NCBI RefSeq assembly: GCF_040436345.1
Contig: NC_133234.1
Span: forward strand, 14,405,446 to 14,469,445
Reading direction: 5' to 3'
DNA: 64,000 bases
From: Pagrus major
Lineage: Eukaryota; Chordata; Actinopteri; Spariformes; Sparidae
The position numbers were made by a program, and so were the translations under genes. The notes under the pieces are model-generated. The model was not told where the DNA came from. It was given only the letters and a program-made list of their open reading frames with translations, and ran no database searches. Positions 23,550 through 63,716 of this stretch are shown piece after piece. The stretch's first letter is position 1. Each line of letters begins with the position of its first letter.

Positions 23550-25190
<1,641 letters not shown>

Positions 25191-26849: not shown

Positions 26850-28189
<1,340 letters not shown>

Positions 28190-36193: not shown

Positions 36194-39100
36194 ATGGCAC
36201 ATCACATGTTGTCTGTGCTGCTTTTGGGAATGATAAGTAAGTAGTTTCAATAAAATGTCATATAATTGTATTCTATATATGTATGTTATCTCCTTTTCGT
36301 ATGTCAATTGATGTTTTGAAAATATACATTACTTCAGTTCTTTAGTATTTGTAAATTTTTTTTAGATTTATCCGGTTATATCCATTTATTAACATATAAA
36401 TCTTTGCTTCATTTCTGTGTAACTTACAGGCATGGTGACTCCCCATAGTTCAGGTAAGCTGAAGATAAATCTCGAGTTTTGTTTGTTTCATACTGTAGTC
36501 TTAGCAGTCAATCCTGCAATCATGTCATAGAGACTCTAACATTTAAGTCACCATATTAATACCAATGCTGTATGATTATTAGTCTAGTTTATCTTTATAT
36601 CAGCAGGATAAAGATGCACAATGATATTAGACAGATTTTTCAGTTATGTGATTTTGGTTTTGCCTCTATAAATTATATTGACTATGCTAGGATAAAACAA
36701 TCCAAGACATGCTCTGAACACTGCAAAAACTAAAAAGTCAAAACTTAAATTGAAGCAAATAGCTTAACAAAATGAACAAAAACAAATGCAACATGCAAGC
36801 CAGCCAAACAACACATAAAAAAAACTTGTGATGTTTTGCAGATTAGTCAGGAACAAGGACCTTTTTTTTATTACAGAGATCCTTGAAGTCAATTAAACAC
36901 TGGTATATCTGCAAACGTTACTGTTCATTTTTAATAACTGCAATTTTTTTCTTCCCAGGACATCTCTACCCAATAAATGGAACTTCAATCCCTCGATCTG
37001 ATGATGGAAGTTCTCCTTTAATAACCTTGCAACATCCTTTTTTCTATTTTGGACGGACATATGAACAGATTTATGTATGTAAAAATACTCTAATACAACA
37101 TAAACACAGTCAAACATTTGTAGACTGTGAAAAAAACACTGGTTTCATAATAACTTTTAACATGTGAAACTGCAAAACAAGGACATACTGTTGAAATTAA
37201 ATTAACTAAAAAATATTTGATAAGATGTAGTTGTCAAAGATAGTCAGTGTCTAGTGATTAACTGTTCATAAGAATTGTTTTACCTCAATATTTGTTTTCA
37301 GGTCAACCAGAACGGACATCTTACATTTGACAGGCCATGGGACAGGTTCAGAGCTTTGCGGTTCCCATTATATGGAGAAAGAGACATCATCGCTCCATTA
37401 TGGACAGATTTGGACAACACAATAAGTGGGCATGTCTACTACAATCAATACACCAGTGGCAGTGTCCTTCAACAAGCTACACAGGACATTAATAAGTATT
37501 TCCCAGGCCTGATGTTTAAAGCTACCTGGGTCTTTGTTGTAACATGGCATGAGGTGGCGTATTATCCAAATCCAAGATCAGTAAGTCATCTTGTTCTAAA
37601 TGGTGAAACACCCAAAAAAATACACACATCTCATGTTATGAAGTACTAAAAACCTTTTTTTTTTTCTCCAGAGCACAACTGTCCAAGCGGTCCTGATCTC
37701 TGGTCAACAGCTCTCATTTGTGCTAATGAACTATGAGGAAATAGACCCCACACCTTACAAAGTGCAGGTCAGAACAATGATCAATAAAGAAATAGAGTAT
37801 GTGCTTTTTAGGTGGTGTAACCAAAATAAAACACAGTGATTGCAGTGTATTGTCTGTATGACACAGTTTTAGTTTTAAAAAAAACATCAAAAGATAATTT
37901 AACATAAAAATATTTGTGTTCATGACATGTACTGTATATTCCAGGCTGGATATGACACAATCAACTCCACTCACTATTTCTCCATCCCTGGATCATTCTC
38001 TGACAATGCAACAGGCCGTAACTCATCTTTCCGTGTGAGCAGCAATGTCAATATCCCTGGTCGATGGGCTTTCCGGATAGACAATGGACAAAGAGGCTGC
38101 TATTTCAATGGTAAGATCAGATACAGAGGGTCACAGCAAGGGGCCACTTGTACTTTATGTACTTTATGTATTAATGGTGCCCGCTCGTGGAATATATACA
38201 TGTAAGACTGACAAAAAAATCTAGACTTGTAGAACAAATTACCACTCGACTGCACACATTATGGTTATTCTTTTTTTAAAAAGTTTTTCTTTTGGCCTTT
38301 CACGGCTTTATTGAGAGGACAGCTTAGACAGATGACAGGAAATAGGATAAGAGAGAGGGGGGATGACACACAGTAAAGGGCCGCAGGTTGGACTCGAACC
38401 CATGGCCACTACTGCGAGGACAAAGCCACTATACATGAGACGCCTGCTCTTCCAACTGAGAGCAGGGTTGTTTTCATTTTTTTTTTAATTGGAGGGGGGA
38501 GATTGGGGACCTCTATTAATATATCAATGATCAAAATTGTCACCGTATTGCAAATTGCATAACTAAGGATAGAAGTTTTTGTTTTCATGATTAATATGGT
38601 ATTGTTTGTGAGTTGGTTTGATTTAAATATGTGGTTGACCATTTCCTCCTGATCCTTTCAAGGTCAACATGTGCAGCTGGGTGATTCATTCTGGAGCGAC
38701 AATACCTGTGCACAAAAGTGCACCTGCACCTCAGCAGGCCTGCTGTGTATCAACCAACCCTGCTCCTTTTCCCAAATCTGCCAGCCAAGTGCCTTTCAGT
38801 TCTCCTGTCAGACGGTGCAGAGAGGCACTTGCACCATAAGTGGTGATCCACATTACTATACCTTTGATGGCACAGTGTTTCACTTCCAGGGCACCTGCAC
38901 TTATGTTCTCTCTGAGCAATGTGGTGCAGGGCTGCCGTACTATAGAGTAGAGGGCGAGAACGAGCACCGGGGCAGCACTCGTGTTTCTTGGACACGACTG
39001 GTCAAAGTGTATGTCTATAACGAAACCATTGAGCTTGTCAAGGGACGTCGTGGTGTAGCTAAGGTTAGTATTTATGATTGAGATCAAAAATGATACTTCT

Positions 39101-42100
39101 TTATGTATAAGATCAAATATGTCTTTGCTGCTCTTGACAGACTTGCTGATGTGCTTTCAGGTAAATGGAACCTTTGCAGCCACTCCGTTTTATCTCAACA
39201 ACGGCACCATCCAGGTTTATGAGTCAGGTTTTTCTGTGATCGTCAGCACTGTCTTTGGCTTGGAAGTATCCTATGACACAAATCACTATGTCAGGATCAG
39301 TGTGCCCTACGCCTATCGGAATGCAACATGTGGCCTCTGTGGAAACTTCAATGGTATTCGTCAGGATGACTTCCGAACCCGTCAGGGTGAGGTTGTGAGT
39401 TCTGATGTGGATTTTGCCAACAGTTGGCAAGCGTCACGGGACAATGAGACTGTTTGTGAGGCGCCATGTGGAGGTCTGGCCTGTGCTGCCTGCACTGATG
39501 ATCAGACAGCTTTATACAGCAATACTGACCATTGTGGTATCCTCGAGAACAGTTCTGGACCTTTTGCTGCTTGTCATCAACAACTTCCCCCACAGATTTT
39601 TGTGGAGAACTGTGTGTTTGATCTGTGTGTAGGAGGAGGGTACCAGCCCATCCTGTGCCAAGCCCTACATGTGTATGCAAGTCAGTGTCAACAGAATGGT
39701 GTACAGCTGCCAAGCTGGAGGAGGCGAGGCTTCTGTGGTATGTCTGTAATTCAATTAAAATAATTTCAAGATGTCCTTTGGGTAAAATAAAATGTCCTTG
39801 ATGTCAAAATCAATGTCATTTTTTCCTCTAGAAATCCCCTGTCCAGCCAATAGCCACTTTGAGCCCCAAGGCACAGGATGTCCAGCTACCTGTGTCAACC
39901 CCAATTCTACCCAGAACTGCCCTCTCCCTGCCCAGGAGAGCTGCATCTGCAATTCTGGCTACATCCTTAGTGCTGGGGTGTGTGTCCCTCATTCAGAGTG
40001 TGGCTGCAGCTTTGAGGGTCGCTACTACCGCTCTGGAGACACTGTAATACTAGACGAAGACTGTGGAAGACGCTGTAGCTGCAGTCATGGCTCCATGACC
40101 TGTCGCTCCCATGGTTGTGGTCCGCTTGAATCATGCAGTGTGGAAGAAGGAGAAAGAGGTTGCAGACCCAACAGCTATGCAACATGCTGGATCAGGGGCC
40201 CAGGGTCATATCACACATTTGATGGACTGGCATACCAGTATCCTGGGGCATGTCGATTGACCCTTGCCAAAGTGATGGGATTGTCTAATCACCCCCACTT
40301 TGTGGTGACAGCAGAAAAAGTGCCCAGAGACCGGCAGGGTTTTGCCCATTTGCTTAAGTTTGAGGCAGAGGGGACACACGTGTCCATTGAGATAGGCAGT
40401 AGCAGCAACGTACAGGTATGTGTTAACAAATGGGAAGGATAAGTTGTGAATGTGAATGTTATTTTCACTATTATGCAGTAAACTTGCACTTGTGTTAGAA
40501 TGTCTAGAATAATTCATATTTTCTTCTCAATCTGGATCTGACTATGTCTTTATATCTAAATGACCCTTAAGGTTGACGGTCAGCGGATCAGACTACCATT
40601 CAGTTCACCGTCCAGTCGAATCAAAATCCGCCAAAGCAGCGTTCACAGTATCATCCTTCACACTTCCTTTGGTGTAACTGTGGCAATAATGTGGCCTTAC
40701 TCTGTGCATGTCACCGCACCTGGTATCTACAATGGATCTCTGGGTGGACTCTGTGGTAACTATAATGGCCATCCAAATGATGATTTTCGTACACCAAATG
40801 GCACCCTGGTCAACAGCTCTCTGCTCTTTGGAGACAGCTGGAGAAGTGGCTCCCTCTCTGCACGCTGTGTGGAGAATGGAAATGACACTATAGATCCTGG
40901 TGAGTACTATGGCTTTCTTGGATTGTTACATGGGCTTTTTGCCCAGTGTTGCCAGAAATGATGCTCTTATCCCCACATTAGTGTCTGGGAGAATTTTTGG
41001 AAGGGATCAAGCAAACAATGTGCGAGCTCCCTCCTGTAATTAGGGATGCGTGATATATACTGCTGCAGTTTTTGGCCTAATATTGGGAAATTTATGTTAT
41101 CGGCCATTTATTGGTATCAGTAAAATGTACAGTGGATTAACGTAGCACATGATATTTAGGCAAACTGCTTCCACTGACTAACAAGCGCATCATCAGCACA
41201 CTCTGAGGCAGTAGATGGCAGTATGCACCTGTAAAGTTGGTTTGAGGTTCACAGACAAGAAGAAGAAGAAGAAGAAACAATGGAGAAGACAATTGCAATT
41301 TGCGATACATGTTCTACAAGGGTTCTGAGGAGAGGGAGAAAATCTAGAATGTTAACAACATAAATCTTATGATTAGAGCCATGGAAAATTAAATCGTCTT
41401 TGCTCACGACATCTTAGCCTTTCTTCCCCGTCGGATATGCCTGTTATGGGCATCAGCTAAAAAGAAATACCAAAGCTTGACCAAAATCAATCAAAATAAA
41501 CATGAATGAAAACAAATCACAATAAAAAACAAAGTATTGAAGACATGGTAGTAATAGAAGAAATTTGAAATTTTATAATTACAAAAAGGTAACAAGAACA
41601 TCAGTTGGGTGAATGTGCTGCCTTGTCTCTGACTTTCCTTTTATAATCATTACGACTATTATTATTATTACTTTACATTTTTTAATATAATTTTATTTAA
41701 ATTTGATATAGTCCTGTATTCATTGTTTAGATTTTTGTGTTGTCCTGCTAGTCTTCTGTTATGCCAGTGGCATAAGGTGGCTTTCATGTTGTTTTAAAAA
41801 GTATTTAATCTGTCTTTTTTGTTTTCTTTTTTGTTCCAAGAAGAAACCTGCCCGCCAAACAGCCATTATGAATCCTGTGGAACCGCTTGTCCTCCCACCT
41901 GCTTTTCTATTCCCAAAGTCTGTATTGCTCTGTGCCAAATGGGTTGCCAGTGTAATGATGGTTTTCTCCTCAATGGCGACCAGTGTGTACCACAATCAGC
42001 CTGTGGATGCTCTTCCCAAGGACGCCATCTGCAAGGTGGTGAACAGTTCTGGGATGGTGAGGAGTGTCAGAGCCTGTGTAGCTGTGATGGCACCACTGGG

Positions 42101-45100
42101 GCAGTCCACTGTATCCCCAGCTCCTGTGGTCCTCAGGAGTCCTGCCGTGTGGTGGATGGTGAGCTTGGCTGCCACCCCAAACCACACGGCATGTGCTCTG
42201 CCGCTGGAGACCCGCACTATCTCACCTTTGATGGCAAGGCCTATGACTTCCAGGGAACCTGCCGCTACGTTCTGGCGACACTTTGTAACACCACTGATGG
42301 TCTCCACCAATTTTCAGTGGAGGCAAAGAACGAGCCATGGAATGACTTGACAGTCTCAGTTACAGCTGAAGTTTTTGTATATGTGCTGGGGGTTCGAGTG
42401 CATATGTCGAGGGAGAGCCACGGTATGGTACAGGTGAGTTAAACAGATTAAAAATTATTGCAAAGATTTTTAATCAAATGATTCTTCAGAGCTCTAAGTG
42501 CAAGCTACACTGAAGGACAAATATAGCTCTGAAAAGCACTTGATAGATGCCACACAAATACAAAACTATGATTATTCTTCTAATGTTGTTTTTCTACTGC
42601 TTAAGGTGAATGGGGTAACTAAACACTTACCTATCCACTTGAATGGAAGTCATGTGTATATCTATACAAGAGGATTTAAAACATTTGTCATTACGGATTT
42701 TGGTCTGGAAGTCACGTATGATGGATGGAGTAGAGTTACTATCTCTGTACCTTCAGGTTACAGGTATCTGCCATGTTTGAATTCTTTAGTTTACATTCTG
42801 AAAAATATATATTATCAATTATTTGAGACATTTAGACTTCATCTTTCACCTAATTTATGACTCTTGATGTATTTAATCATTATCATCAATACAGTGGAAA
42901 AACATGTGGTCTCTGTGGAAACTTCAATGGAAATCAAAACGATGACTTCCAGACCCCATCTGGAATGACGGTCTCCACTCCAGATGAGTTTGGGACAGCT
43001 TGGAAGGTGGCAGGAAACTACACCTGCAGTGATGGGTGTGGTTCCTCCTGTCCACAATGTACCAATGAGCTTCCTGCTAGAGCTCAGTGTGAGGTGATTC
43101 AAGCAGCTGATGGCCCCTTCAGCTTCTGCCATGATCAGGTGGACCCAGCACCATATTTCAATGACTGTGTGTTTGATGTTTGTGTGTCTGGAAATCGCGA
43201 TCTTTTGTGCAGAGCCATTCAGGCATATGTCAGTGCCTGTCAATCTGCTAATGTTCGAATCTACCCTTGGAGGCAGAACACAATCTGCAGTAAGTCAACC
43301 AGTCAGTTTTTCTCAACATGTCTCCTGAGTGACTGTCTACTCACAAATGTATGTTATTAAATTATATTCACATAATAGCCATAATTTCTTTTCACACTTA
43401 TTAAGGAATCAACTGTCCAGCCAACGAACATTATGAGCTGTGTGGTACTGACTGTGGCCACACCTGTGCCAACAGCAATGATACCATGTGTGAGCAGATT
43501 TGCTCGGAGGGATGTTTCTGTGACAAAGGCTTCGTCAGAAGTGGGACAAGCTGTGTCCCAGTGGAAAGATGTGGCTGCCAACATGATGGCTTCTACTATG
43601 ATGTAAGCCACATCCCGGTTAATACTTTGAGTTAAGAATAAGCAACAATTTCATTAATGCTCGTTTTTTTCATGTTGCAGGCTGGTGAGTCGTTCTGGAC
43701 AGAGGGATGCTCCCAGCGATGTGAGTGCCACGCTCCCAATGACCTGCGCTGCTCTGCTGCGTCTTGCACTCCTGAACAAGAGTGCACCATCAGAAATGGC
43801 CAGCTGGGCTGTTTCGATGCAATGTCTACATGCACTGTGTGGGGGGACCCACACTACATCACCTTTGATGGGGCATTAGCTCACTTCCAGGGCACATGCT
43901 CTTACATCATTACTGAGAGTGTGAGCGAAGGCACCAATGAGACACAGTTTCAGGTAATTGCCACCAATAATCACCGTGGCAACAACCGCGTGTCTTTTGT
44001 ATCAGCAGTCGACATATACCTCTCAGATCCCCCAGAGAGTGCATACATCAGGATTGGACCCAACAAAAGAGTAAAGGTAATCTATTATTTATTTTCTAGA
44101 TGAACAATTTTCTACAGCTGTCTGCTGTAAAAACATGGAACAACAGCCCTCCTCATCATCTTGTTTGTCTCTCTAATCTCTCCTCCCTCCAGGTGAATGG
44201 AAGTGAGGTGTCTCTTCCCACCACTGCAGGAAGCTTAGCTCAGGTAGAAAGGCAGGGAAGCTACATAGTGGTCAAAGCCACTGACTTGATAGTCCAGTTT
44301 GATGGCCAGAGCACTTTATTGGTCAGACTGGACAGAAATCATCAGAACAGAGTCACAGGGATGTGTGGAAACTTCAACTATGACCCAGCAGATGATAAAG
44401 TCTTGCCCAATGGCACATCAGCACAAAATGACAATGACTTTGGACACAGCTGGAAGGCACCCACGAGCCAACCAGGGTAACCACAGCAAATACACTGTAC
44501 AGTTCAATACCAAATGCGTGACATGTTATATGAAGGTGGAGATGTTTGTGCTCTTTAAAAAGAAAAAAAATTTCATCTCAAGGACTGTCAATTTTTGGAT
44601 TTCTAAAATGAGAGCGTTTGGCTTAATTTTACAATTCTAAGTCTTCTAGAAATTCCTCAAACCACAAAGCAGAATATATATTTTTAACATGAACATAGAA
44701 ACCTGTAAAAACCAAGTTTCGAGGGTTTCACAATTAAACAAGGATATACAGTATTGTAAATCAACGGCAATAACTTTTGAGATACATTTCCATCAAACTG
44801 TTAAATGTGTAACACTGAATATCTTTTCCAGATGTGGATCCACAGATGATGACAGTGGTGATGGACTGAACAACTGTCCCTTTATGGACGAATACTCTGA
44901 GCTCTGTGGTGTCATCACCAACACCAGCGGTCCATTCAGTGACTGTCACCTGCACTCTGACCCCCAGCCTTTTTTCACCTCCTGCGTCTACGATCTCTGC
45001 CTCTACACTCCAGCCAATGGCATGCTGTGCTCTGCCGTCTCAGCCTATGAGAGAACCTGCTCTGTTTTGAGGCTGAACATCCCAGAGTGGCGCTCAGCTT

Positions 45101-45687
45101 TGCAGTGTGGTATGTTAATCCCGGGCTAATTGACATGGTTGTTGCATGAAAATAATGATTCCTTAGGAGATTATAGATTTTTTTTTTTTCTGTTATCTGT
45201 TCTGTTTCATCTGTCCTTGTCTCATTTCTTTTCCCACTTTTTTCTGCAGCTGAGTCAGACCCCTGTGAACAGCTGAACTGCACAGAGTATGAGTGGTGTG
45301 GTGAGAAAGACGATGTTTACGGCTGCTTCTGTGAGGAGCAATATTCTCGGCCCAACAACGAGAGCTGCGGTGCGAGCTCCTCTTGAAATATATTTTTTTT
45401 GTTAGATAACAGAAATAATAATGGCTGTGTGTGTCTTGACCTAACAAAAACACGTGAGAGTTGGGTTAAAACAAATAAAAATCTAGATACCATCTTGCTA
45501 TGACATCCCACCAGATGCAATGTCTGAGGACTGTGGAGTTGATTATCAACATAATTCTGACCCATGACAATCACTAGTCATTACTATGTTATTACATGGG
45601 ATCACGCCAATCTATAAACTCAGCCATCATTTTGATTTCACACCTGTTAAGTTTTGTGCATGCATCTTGCACAGACAAAAACAATAC

Positions 45688-45739
<52 letters not shown>

Positions 45740-46736
45740 ATCATGGCTGGTATTAATATGCATTCATGGCAAAAAGCATATTCAACAAGCTTTCCATGGT
45801 CCAGTCTGGGGATTTGGTATAACAAAATACATTTTCATTGTTTTATTCTAGACTCATCCATCACTTGTGCCGGTAGTTCAGGCACAATATCCCTGTCACG
45901 CTGCCAGCTGTTTGAAGCTGGCTTCCAACCTAGTGCCCTTCACCTCAAAGATGACTCCTGTAAAGGGACTCTTCAGGATGGACGACTGGTGTTCCACTTT
46001 AACAATGACGACCAGCTGTGTGGTACAGTTCTCAGGGTACAGTCCATGGCCTACACTGTTATCACCGCAGACGTAGAATTATTTTAGATGTGAATGTTCT
46101 CCACAGGATAGATTGCATCTGTCATATACTAATTCTACTTTTTAAATATTCAAATCTTAAAGAGCAATGGGACCCACTTCCGCTATGAGAACTCCATCCA
46201 GAGCAATGAAGGTGAAAATATTCACCTGGTATTCTCCTGTGAATACCCTCTGACTCAGGCCCTGTCTATGGATATAGGCATTAACCCTGTGGAGAGGTAA
46301 GAGTAAAGATAAGATAATCTCTTAAAAAATGCTGTATATCTTTAAAAGAACACATCTATTTTCACAGTGAACATCTGCTGACAGTGATGTATCACAGTGT
46401 GTGTAATATAACACACAAATCTGCACCTAAAGTGAGATTCTATCAAATTTGTCAGATTAGCACTAGTGGTGAAATTTCATCTATCTACAGTATGAACCCT
46501 CCAAACTGTCTTTTAAGTTTATCTACCTTGCTAACAACTGATACATTTCACAACACACTGTCTATAAATATGTGAATAGATTTTAAAAAAGCTCTTTGAT
46601 TTTGATTTACATATAATAATGTAAAGTGTTATACTATATATGTATATATATATATATAAAAATATACACACATATATATATAAATATACACATATATATA
46701 TATATATATATATACATATAGATATATGTATATATC

Positions 46737-46776
<40 letters not shown>

Positions 46777-46792
46777 GATATATGTATATATC

Positions 46793-46846
<54 letters not shown>

Positions 46847-48976
46847 TGTTCTAAAGCATGGGCAATCTATCTGCATCAGACTATATATTAAAAAACAATA
46901 TGGGATATCTTTGGGTTGTTGACAAAACCAGACATTTGTAGTCGTCATCTTGGGCTTTTGGAAGTACTGATCGAGATTTTTTACCATTTTCTGACATTCT
47001 AAGGACCCAACCACAACTAATCAATAAATTGAGAAAATAATCTTAACATTACTCAACAATCAAAATAATAATTAATTGCATCCCAATTGTACATATTGTA
47101 TTAATTACCAAAGTTCCACTAAATTCTTCTTTCTGTTGTTCTTTGTTTTTCTGTAGCTTTGTGAGGAAGAGGCTTCCTTCTGGCCAGGGAAGCTATCATT
47201 TGAGAATGACCCCCTACCAGGATGCTGGCTTCCACTCCCCCTCGACCAGTAAGATGAACGTAGAAATGGAAACTGACGAGAAGTTGTATGTGGAAGTGCG
47301 AGCAGAGGGAGTCGACGAAAGGCAGATCTCCACCGTTCTGGACTCTTGTTGGGCCACGCCAGTCAACAATGCCAGCTACCCTGTCCGCCGGGATCTCATT
47401 AGTGCAGAGTAAAGGATCTACTAGAAATTCACCTTGTGTTTCTTCAACCATCTTCTCTTCTAAGACTTAACCCTGTTACCCTACTAACTGTCACTTTCAC
47501 TCCTTCCCTGTTTTTCAGGTGTCCTTATCTAGCAGATGATAGGGTACAGCTGATTCAGAATGGCAATTCCACGGCGGCCAGATTCTCCTTCGAGATTTTC
47601 TCCTTTACCAATTTTCCATCTATCTACCTGCACTGCCAGGCCCACCTGTGTCTTTTGAGCAGCAACGACTGCACAGCTGTAAGTACCATTATCATCCTCC
47701 CTTATTCATCCTCCCACTTTCTTAAATCAGACAGTACAAACAGGTGAGAAATGAGACAGACATAGGTGTAACAAAATAAACAGACATACAGTGAGGGCTA
47801 CTTTGTTGAACTTTTGTAGAGGGCCCATTTTGCCACATCCAACTCTGAGATCCATATATCAATTTTTTCCAATTATGACTTTCTATTTCATGGCGAAACA
47901 GAAACCAGCAATGCTGTTTCATGTAAAGTCACGGTCTCCACAAGATAACTTTCACATGTAGATTTCTTCAGGCCAGAACTTCTATCAAGCATATGAAGTT
48001 TGGGGCATATTTGAGATTGTACAGTTGAGTTACAGCAGTTTTAACAAGTTTAACAACTTTTTATTGTTAAGGTCTTCAGATTGCACTAAACCTTGTACTG
48101 TTAAAGGCTAAATATAAGCACTAAATTCAAAATGGCCGACTTCCTGTTGGGTATAGGTCATCGCCCCAAGAGGCTTTTTTATAGATATAGATATAATGCA
48201 TTGTCCTACCAAATATGACACATCTGGTTGAAACTTTAGGGGGCACTAGTAAGCCATTTTGCCATGCCAATACACTTCGGACGTGTGCAAAGTAGTGCAC
48301 GTTTTAGAGCACTCTTGGCCCCTAAAAACAGTGCTTATCTTTTGTTAAGAATAATATGAACCCCTTCACTTTCAAAGGGTGCTCGCACTTGAAAGTTATT
48401 TTAAAAAAAATTAAAAAGGGAAATTTAATCAATGATGTCGCAAGTGTTGTAAAGCACTTTGAGCAGTCAGTTGACTGGAAAAGCATTTACGATGTTCGTA
48501 GACTTACCAGAGAAAAAGTGAAGAAAGAGATGAGGACTTATATTTATTCGGGTTATGATCTGTGTACAAAACAGGCAGAATTTCTCTTGACGGATGAAAC
48601 AGAACATTGTGTCATTGTGCTTTCGTGCTTCCATAAATTAATCCTGTCATCAAAAGCAATGACTTTAATTGCTCAGCTGCTTCGTGCCTTGTAATGTGCT
48701 GCACAACCCTTACAGTACGTGATCACAGTAAGTCAGCCAGAATCAATGCATCAATAAAAGAATGTTGTTCTTCTGCAGGATTGCCACCGCGGTCACCACA
48801 GAGTTCAGAGAGACGTTACCTCCCCTGACACTGTCATGCTCTCACTTGGACCTCTGGTTGTCATGCCGAGTGGATACACAGTATGAACATTCCCTCTTAT
48901 CTTTACATCACCTCTACATTCTTTCAGATCATATATAGATTATAACCTGTTTGTTCTCTTGCAGACAAAACGATGA
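36194..48976 (+). CDS. Alpha-tectorin-like protein, gene A (NIDO-vWD/C8/TIL-ZP)
   Basis: Secreted matrix protein of the TECTA type. Exons: 36194-36236, 36430-36453, 36959-37074, 37302-37580, 37672-37767, 37945-38110, 38663-39063, 39161-39737, 39832-40415, 40572-40899, 41841-42433, 42606-42763, 42895-43289, 43406-43602, 43681-44076, 44193-44476, 44832-45109, 45250-45369, 45852-46036, 46163-46296, 47157-47408, 47519-47678, 48779-48880, 48965-48976; about 1959 aa. Order: signal peptide ([10 protein letters not shown]), NIDO about 55-240 ([33 protein letters not shown]), vWC-like segment, vWD1-C8-TIL, vWD2 (C8 lost)-TIL, vWD3-C8-TIL, vWD4-C8, EGF-like (1640-1677), ZP (about 1680-1925). GDPHY stands in vWD1, 3 and 4; vWD2 has GPGSYH. 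CGLCG is intact in vWD1 and 3. The tail has [12 protein letters not shown], then stop, without membrane anchor. Exon 10 uses a proposed shortened donor; otherwise the gene would end early. Zonadhesin or FCGBP are alternatives, but NIDO plus ZP fits TECTA best. Confidence 0.88.
38270..38470 (-). repeat. tRNA-derived SINE in intron 6 of gene A
   Basis: Reading the minus strand, GCTCTCAGTTGGAAGAGCAG (box A-like) is followed about 40 bases later by GGGTTCGAGTCC (box B) and then CAACCTGCGGCC. The body continues to a T-rich end at about 38270 on the plus strand. The tRNA-like head is clear; the family name is not known to me. Confidence 0.7.
40900..41040 (+). pseudogene. Decayed second C8 domain of gene A
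   Basis: Directly after the CCTG|GTGAGT donor the old exon still reads [17 protein letters not shown], parallel to GEYCGILGSPHGPFVPC-type sequence in gene B, then hits TGA at 40959-40961. Beyond this only patches align with B (GGATCAAGCA, TGTGCGAGCTCC). About 240 coding bases are lost, and from about 41042 unrelated repeat-like sequence (GGGATGCGTGATAT, ATCGGCCATTTATTGGTATC) follows. Confidence 0.75.
41041..41840 (+). other. Rest of gene A intron 10, TE-like
   Basis: Begins with a GGGATGCGTGATATAT...CGGCCATTTATTGGTATCAG stretch typical of fish repeats with NATCGGCC motifs, then an AGAAGAAGAAG run (41260-41275), then AT-rich filler to the TTGTTCCAAG acceptor. It has probably replaced the original intron and exon end. 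Confidence 0.45.
45690..45739. repeat. (CA)n microsatellite in intron 18 of gene A
   Basis: About 25 uninterrupted CA units, about 110 bases before the ZP-N exon acceptor. His-Thr and Val-Cys frames here are artefacts. Confidence 0.95.
46636..46845. repeat. (TA)n microsatellite with internal palindrome in intron 20 of gene A
   Basis: TA runs interrupted twice by the same ACATATAGATATATGTATAT word followed by ATCTATGTGTGTA, so a unit of about 66 bases is itself duplicated. It is highly self-complementary. Confidence 0.9.
47760..48420. repeat. Interspersed repeat in intron 22 of gene A
   Basis: Contains AAAATGGCCGACTTCCTGTT, CCCCAAGAGGCTTTTTTATA and GGGGGCACTAGTAAGCCATT, wording I associate with a common teleost dispersed repeat often seen in introns and 3' regions. 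Ends are not defined and there is no coding frame. Confidence 0.5.
48356..48694 (+). other. Unrecognised 112-codon open frame in intron 22 of gene A
   Basis: A frame from ATG reads a Lys-rich, mixed-charge sequence ([35 protein letters not shown]). Composition is protein-like rather than low-complexity, and I recognise no domain. Its first part overlaps the end of the dispersed repeat and it ends 84 bases before the next exon. It has no promoter or poly(A) signal of its own. It may be chance or a relic of a mobile element; gene B has no counterpart inside the window. Confidence 0.2.
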
Positions 48977-49335
48977 AACCTTCTTGATGACCCTACTTGA
49001 CATTTTCTGATTGCAACAACTCTGGAGAGATCAATGTATACCCCATCATAGTATATTCATGACAGGACAGTCGCTTAATCATGTCAATTTGAATCTTTAA
49101 TTATATTGTCAATATTTAGAAAAGAACATGGTTTATGTAGTCGTATTTCCAGATCCCACAGAAAGCCCTACCCATAGCTTGTCTTCTCTGCAGAGACACA
49201 GCATAGATAGAAAGAACTAAGTAAAATACCAATCTTTTATTTCTGGGCTGTGATTAACTAAAGCGCCATGGAGAATGTTAAGCCTCGGATCTGGGCGTAC
49301 AATGTATTTCAATAAAAACAACTTGAGAAGCTTAT
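48977..49335 (+). terminator. Gene A 3' UTR and polyadenylation signal
   Basis: AATAAA at 49311-49316, 335 bases after the stop codon, is the first good signal and is followed by AT/GT-rich sequence. Confidence 0.65.

Positions 49336-53098: not shown

Positions 53099-63716
<10,618 letters not shown>

Follow-up and report, generated by a model that had tools for sequence, protein, structure and literature searches.

A complete D assembly consists of VWD, C8, and TIL modules, and the best solved relatives, by sequence, of the genes described here are the FCGBP assemblies 8rde and 8r0t. Among the alignments listed, both carry VWD, C8, and TIL in that order, as does the second D assembly (D2) of the intact tandem copy, gene B; unlike D2 of its neighbor, gene A, they contain C8 in the full-length alignments among those listed. 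According to the excerpted text of the FCGBP study (PMC10880436), the other D assembly structures it cites have C8 packed onto the VWD sandwich, which is not where C8 of FCGBP D10 sits; when a D10 mutant was treated with trypsin, its VWD and C8 fragments still resisted proteolysis. The same excerpt describes a disulfide in FCGBP D10 (C4097–C4255) that links VWD to a cysteine just before C8, and, judged by position, the partners of this disulfide would be retained in gene A.

The spiggin genes of stickleback, like the three genes described here, are a tandemly arranged fish family whose proteins have VWD and C8 domains; unlike them, they are mucin-like, and in spiggin B, which has four vWD and three C8 domains, the authors found no TIL, as stated in the available portion of that report (PMC4989455). 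The loss of coding sequence to an intron in one member of a duplicate pair also has a precedent. In the available part of PMC4852290, pseudoexonization is a term applied to duplicate genes, with cases of 8 and 45 nt in plant genes, in which what is exon in one copy aligns with intron in the other. Gene A is similar in this respect, since its positions 40900–40951 align with exon 10 of gene B, a segment that is intronic in gene A only if a donor at 40899 is used; it differs from the short plant stretches in that a whole folded domain is concerned, with a repeat inside. The class of event, from exon to intron in a duplicate, is already known, and the unusual part is a VWD–TIL unit without C8, which is not described in the available portions of PMC8729012, PMC10082768, PMC4852290, PMC10880436, PMC4989455, and PMC1325057, a statement that concerns these sources and not all print.

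Organization of the Tandem Gene Trio

The window, the whole stretch of 64,000 nucleotides that was analyzed (C20:14405446–14469445), contains two similarly built genes, A and B, of which B extends beyond the window end; a third tandem copy, gene C, lies downstream of the window (exons 1–22, C20:14475479–14489437). By gene content, the host is probably a teleost fish. According to the exon table, exons 1–22 of gene A occupy 36194–47678 on the forward strand in an open frame, and gene B runs on the same strand from window position 53099 onward. In the joined gene A protein, Pfam recognizes NIDO, four VWD, three C8, three TIL, four TILa, and ZP-C domains, the tectorin-like build of NIDO, D assemblies, and ZP, and we take the trio to be alpha-tectorin-like. 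The exon order of gene A is the same as that of B and C, and the phases are the same wherever compared, which for gene B means up to exon 20, where its table ends. Unlike gene A, both B and C retain an undamaged C8 in D2, encoded within a 553-nt exon, and a last exon with a tail.

The exon ends of A and B were chosen within 6 nt of hand-placed ends, and chains containing stops were rejected; an open frame was a condition when the exon ends of gene A were chosen, which weakens frame openness as evidence. The exons of gene C and the end of gene B were placed by likeness and splice consensus. Two acceptors separated by 3 nt, both in frame, are available to exon 11 of gene A (41839–41843), a pair that could add or drop one residue.

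D2 stands apart from the other D assemblies in all three genes. Many VWD domains, though not every one, bear a GDPH motif, as the available text of PMC10880436 states. The motif is absent from D2 of A, B, and C and is kept as GDPHY in D1, D3, and D4, a hint that D2 had already departed from the standard form.

Elsewhere in the window, a Neurexophilin coding stretch (Pfam, 1.5e-98) lies on the reverse strand at 26853–27545, and parts of a Tc1/Sleeping Beauty-like transposase, in two overlapping open stretches in different frames, lie at 23898–24948.

Loss of C8 from the Second D Assembly of Gene A

Exon 10 of B, like that of C, spans 553 nt and encodes the second half of VWD2 and the entire C8 (in gene B, 57605–58157 on the forward strand, by exon table, Pfam, and donor scoring). 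A first-pass annotation of the window had described exon 10 of gene A, set against the 553-nt exon of gene B, as broken by a TGA at 40959, and this was confirmed: when exon 10 of gene A is read past 40899, the in-frame TGA is reached 19 codons beyond 40901. The shortened exon 10 (40572–40899, forward strand; exon table and Pfam) is 328 nt long and encodes the second half of VWD2. Lengths of 328 and 553 nt both end in phase 1, as had been claimed, and exon 11 of gene A (41841–42433, forward strand), which spans TIL2 through the first half of VWD3 by the exon table, joins in frame. With the 40899 donor, exons 1–22 of gene A are stop-free on translation.

When D2 of gene A is read to the TGA, Pfam gives VWD only and no C8, and D2 is not a complete D assembly (VWD-C8-TIL), as C8 is absent between VWD and TIL. 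The last cysteine of VWD2 is separated from TIL2 by 12 residues without cysteines in gene A, vs. 87 residues, 6 of them cysteines, in B and C. VWD2 has four cysteines and TIL2 eleven in all three genes; with exon 10 cut, the 6 intervening cysteines of gene A are gone and the 4 of VWD2 stay. If the 40899 donor is used, VWD2 would directly precede TIL in gene A.

What follows position 40899 resembles a C8-coding sequence in decay. A C8 coding remnant occupies 40900–40956 (forward strand), with the TGA following at 40959; its first 52 bp (40900–40951) align with exon 10 of gene B at 76.9%, and a Tyr stands where B and C have their first C8 cysteine. Nonsynonymous change between A and B affects 8 of 36 sites in the remnant; for the retained part, the count is 26.5 of 229 (Fisher p=0.10). 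The corresponding counts between A and C are 9.5 of 36 and 27.5 of 230. The next 84 bp (40957–41040, forward strand), with several indels, are a probable continuation of the decayed exon, with a weak, gapped, co-linear likeness to gene B that was equaled by 12 of 4120 null windows; a second null test gave 30 and 16 of 3296 windows against B, 70 of 3296 against C, and 6 of 687 when anchored, and shuffles gave 0.007. The same shuffle test gave 0.052 for the repeat itself and 0.24 for a control intron piece, and this co-linear step is for that reason graded as moderate only. A clean deletion of C8 is less likely, given that this weak likeness to gene B persists.

The decayed stretch is followed by a dispersed repeat (41041–41440, forward strand, ends approximate), for which at least 47 matches, its own included, were obtained from 40 scored of 237 candidates, the others having 68–93% identity. 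The repeat is absent from introns 10 of B and C, which are too short to hold it (102 and 89 bp, respectively). The sequences CCTGTAAT (41033) and CCTGTTAT (41440) are alike at 7 of 8 positions by eye and form a possible target duplication. Of the 13 other copies fetched, 8 matched on the plus strand; 2 whose matched span exceeded 600 bases were left out and 6 entered a star tree of seven copies, in which the branch of gene A's own copy has K=0.157 (bootstrap 0.114–0.206). The damage to C8 looks old; the repeat may predate it inside the intron of gene A, in which case it provides no date for the damage.

A search of 40900–41840 with trio-derived models (open stretches of at least 30 aa, E≤0.001) gave no C8 match, and on that basis a C8 encoded as a separate exon within intron 10 of gene A was rejected. 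No end of C8 was found beyond the repeat, where the likeness of 41440–41519 was equaled by 3740 of 4120 null windows and 41440–41830 gave 0.257 in the shuffle test.

The Putative Donor at 40899/40900

The donor CCTG/GTGAGT at 40899/40900, to which the annotation had pointed, is present (CTG/GTGAGT, 40897–40905, forward strand) and scores 8.22 with a matrix built from the donors of genes A, B, and C, which places it 27th among the 68 trio donors, itself counted. A score of at least 8.22 is reached by 45 of the 3974 GTs of the window, real donors included. The idea that GTGAGT is new in gene A was rejected, as the hexamer is also found in the intact copies B and C (CTA/GTGAGT; at 57945 in gene B), where it serves as Ser-Glu-Tyr codons at the start of the intact C8. 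The preceding base is G in gene A and A in B and C, and the latent site of B and C scores 5.97 vs. 8.22 in gene A; the full-exon donor of B and C scores 8.93. This G/A difference, which no outgroup polarizes, may be a gain in A or a loss in B and C.

On these sequences, the best reading is that gene A is quite likely a living gene that splices at 40899. Gene A would be a living member of the trio whose second D assembly lacks C8: the C8-coding 3′ part of exon 10 has decayed and contains a dispersed repeat, and splicing would have moved to the 40899/40900 donor, whose GTGAGT consists of codons in the intact copies and attains a full-donor score with the preceding G. With phase 1 kept, translation would proceed from VWD2 through a 12-residue link to TIL2 and onward as far as the ZP module. 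A tentative further reading, to which we give a low probability, is that C8 of D2 is a removable module throughout the trio, which B and C sometimes splice out, and that gene A fixed the C8-less form before its C8 decayed; VWD–TIL would then be a regulated, later fixed form of D assembly in a matrix protein.

The 3′ End of Gene A

Exon 23 of gene A (48779–48880, forward strand), which encodes the end of the ZP module, was located by tblastn (51.7% to C and 54.8% to B), and its likely donor is in phase 0, whereas those of B and C are in phase 1. In the remnant of exon 24 (48965–49011, forward strand), recognized by comparison with B and C, each reading frame meets an early stop (within 3, 14, or 6 residues). 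The annotation had described all other exons of gene A as open, with the phases of gene B; this holds for the open exons 1–22 and for the phases through exon 20, but not for the donor phase of exon 23 or the stops of exon 24.

The tail encoded by exon 24 of B and C is 30 residues long and seems hydrophobic on visual inspection. In gene A, exons 23 and 24, joined as found, give a protein end of MPSGYTTKR. The available text of PMC8729012 offers nothing on the loss of such anchors. A hydrophobic C-terminal anchor signal is absent from gene A, as all three exon 24 frames stop early. Exon 23 of gene A contains RVQR, which by motif we take to be a furin-like site. If made, the product of gene A is probably secreted and not anchored, the loss of the last-exon tail leading to a secreted form; alternatively, the tail loss is a second scar of decay.

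The copies differ at other positions of their 3′ halves. At the end of exon 18 of gene A (45250–45369), a cysteine (NNESC) stands where B and C have tyrosine (NNESY), and this cysteine might complete an EGF-like set. Within the ZP module, exon 20 of gene B (63556–63716) has an extra cysteine (FCCEY; FSCEY in A and C), and nine residues are missing from exon 20 of gene A.

Probable Gene Conversion and Constraint

Identity between A and B is 72–90% in exons 1–6, 10–12, and 18–22 and 91–99% in exons 7–9, 13, and 15–17, with exon 14 at 89%. Gene C is 96–99% like A and B in exons 15–17, and B and C are 94–97% alike in exons 10, 11, 18, and 19, where A is not. The high-identity exons 7–9, 13, and 15–17 are read as products of gene conversion. 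Positions 43671–44478 of gene A and 61546–62353 of gene B are 98.3% identical over 808 bp, intron included, which probably reflects recent gene conversion, as compared with about 80% in many other exons.

Constraint was estimated with our own likelihood script, mainly over the 885 codons common to A, B, and C in exons 1–6, 10–12, and 18–22, the exons judged to be little touched by gene conversion. On the A branch, which covers pre-damage time as well, dN/dS is 0.449 (p=5e-10 against 1), and the B and C branches are lower over the same codons (0.287 and 0.323). The A-branch value is 0.415 in exons 10–12 (p=1.8e-6 against 1), 0.324 in the retained part of exon 10 (p=0.0003), 0.477 in exons 11–12 (p=0.0014), and 0.348 in exons 18–22 (p=1.1e-5); in exons 1–6, it is 0.669 and indistinguishable from 1 (p=0.18). 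The high-identity exons give 0.592 (exons 7–9, p=0.18) and 0.455 (exons 13–17, p=0.039).

The 885 codons of gene A contain no stop or frameshift. Neutral substitution of the codons of gene B produced a mean of 12.7 stops at K=0.16 and 9.7 at K=0.114, where none of 1000 runs lacked a stop; at K=0.03, the mean was 2.8, and 55 of 1000 runs lacked one. Provided that the repeat arrived while C8 was being damaged or later, a dead gene A would show about 10–13 stops, and on that condition the open codons argue for lasting constraint on gene A.

The possibility that gene A is dying or recently dead is doubtful, but it draws on several of these observations. The C8 damage and the lost tail would be its first scars, conversion and a short time since death would have kept the other exons open, and the donor would be a coding leftover. 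There are indeed two lesions; dN/dS is raised on the A branch, most clearly in exons 1–6; some exons are far more alike between copies than most others; and a death as recent as K=0.03 would leave some neutral runs stop-free. Against this stand the 885 codons free of stops and frameshifts, the dN/dS below 1 downstream of the damage, and the decay of the remnant together with the divergence of the repeat. The scattered stops and frameshifts of a dead pseudogene are not seen in exons 1–22 with the 40899 donor; the lesions found are confined to C8 and the 3′ end. The earlier argument from open exons against a dead gene is kept in part: exons 1–22 are open and dN/dS is below 1 in exons 10–12 and 18–22, but the 3′ end is lost, and conversion also keeps frames open.

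Other Readings of Exon 10

It is improbable that gene A encodes a short secreted protein of NIDO, D1, and VWD2 that ends at the TGA at 40959 and leaves the downstream exons unused. The frame does stay open past the donor up to that stop, but exons 11–12 and 18–22 are in frame with an A-branch dN/dS below 1, and the 40899 donor scores like real donors. An assembly artefact, in which 40900–41840 was wrongly joined and gene A really has a whole exon 10, is very improbable: tandem copies that are locally 98–99% alike can mislead assembly, but the likeness to C8 fades beyond the donor without ending abruptly there, a diverged repeat comes next, and exons 10–12 of gene A are merely 75–85% like those of B and C. 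The least probable is another splice route through exon 10, such as the further phase-1 donor sites at 40755 (7.03) or 40578 (6.95), both of which score below 8.22 and would cut into VWD2, whose retained part is among the constrained regions of gene A, while skipping all of exon 10 would, by the phases, shift the frame.

Implications

Rescue by splicing in a living gene, as originally proposed, is the best supported explanation, with open exons 1–22, dN/dS below 1 in exons 10–12 and 18–22, and old-looking damage in its favor; it is qualified by the lost tail, the presence of GTGAGT in B and C, gene conversion, and the value of exons 1–6. The sequences, the frames, the decay, the repeat, and the dN/dS values are established; donor use, the order of events, and secretion are inferences. 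If gene A is selected with VWD joined straight to TIL, C8 would be dispensable in one unit, and, if the reading is true, a latent donor within coding sequence would let a duplicate outlive the loss of a domain; beyond these two points, gene A would be a modest case of ordinary duplicate-gene remodeling.
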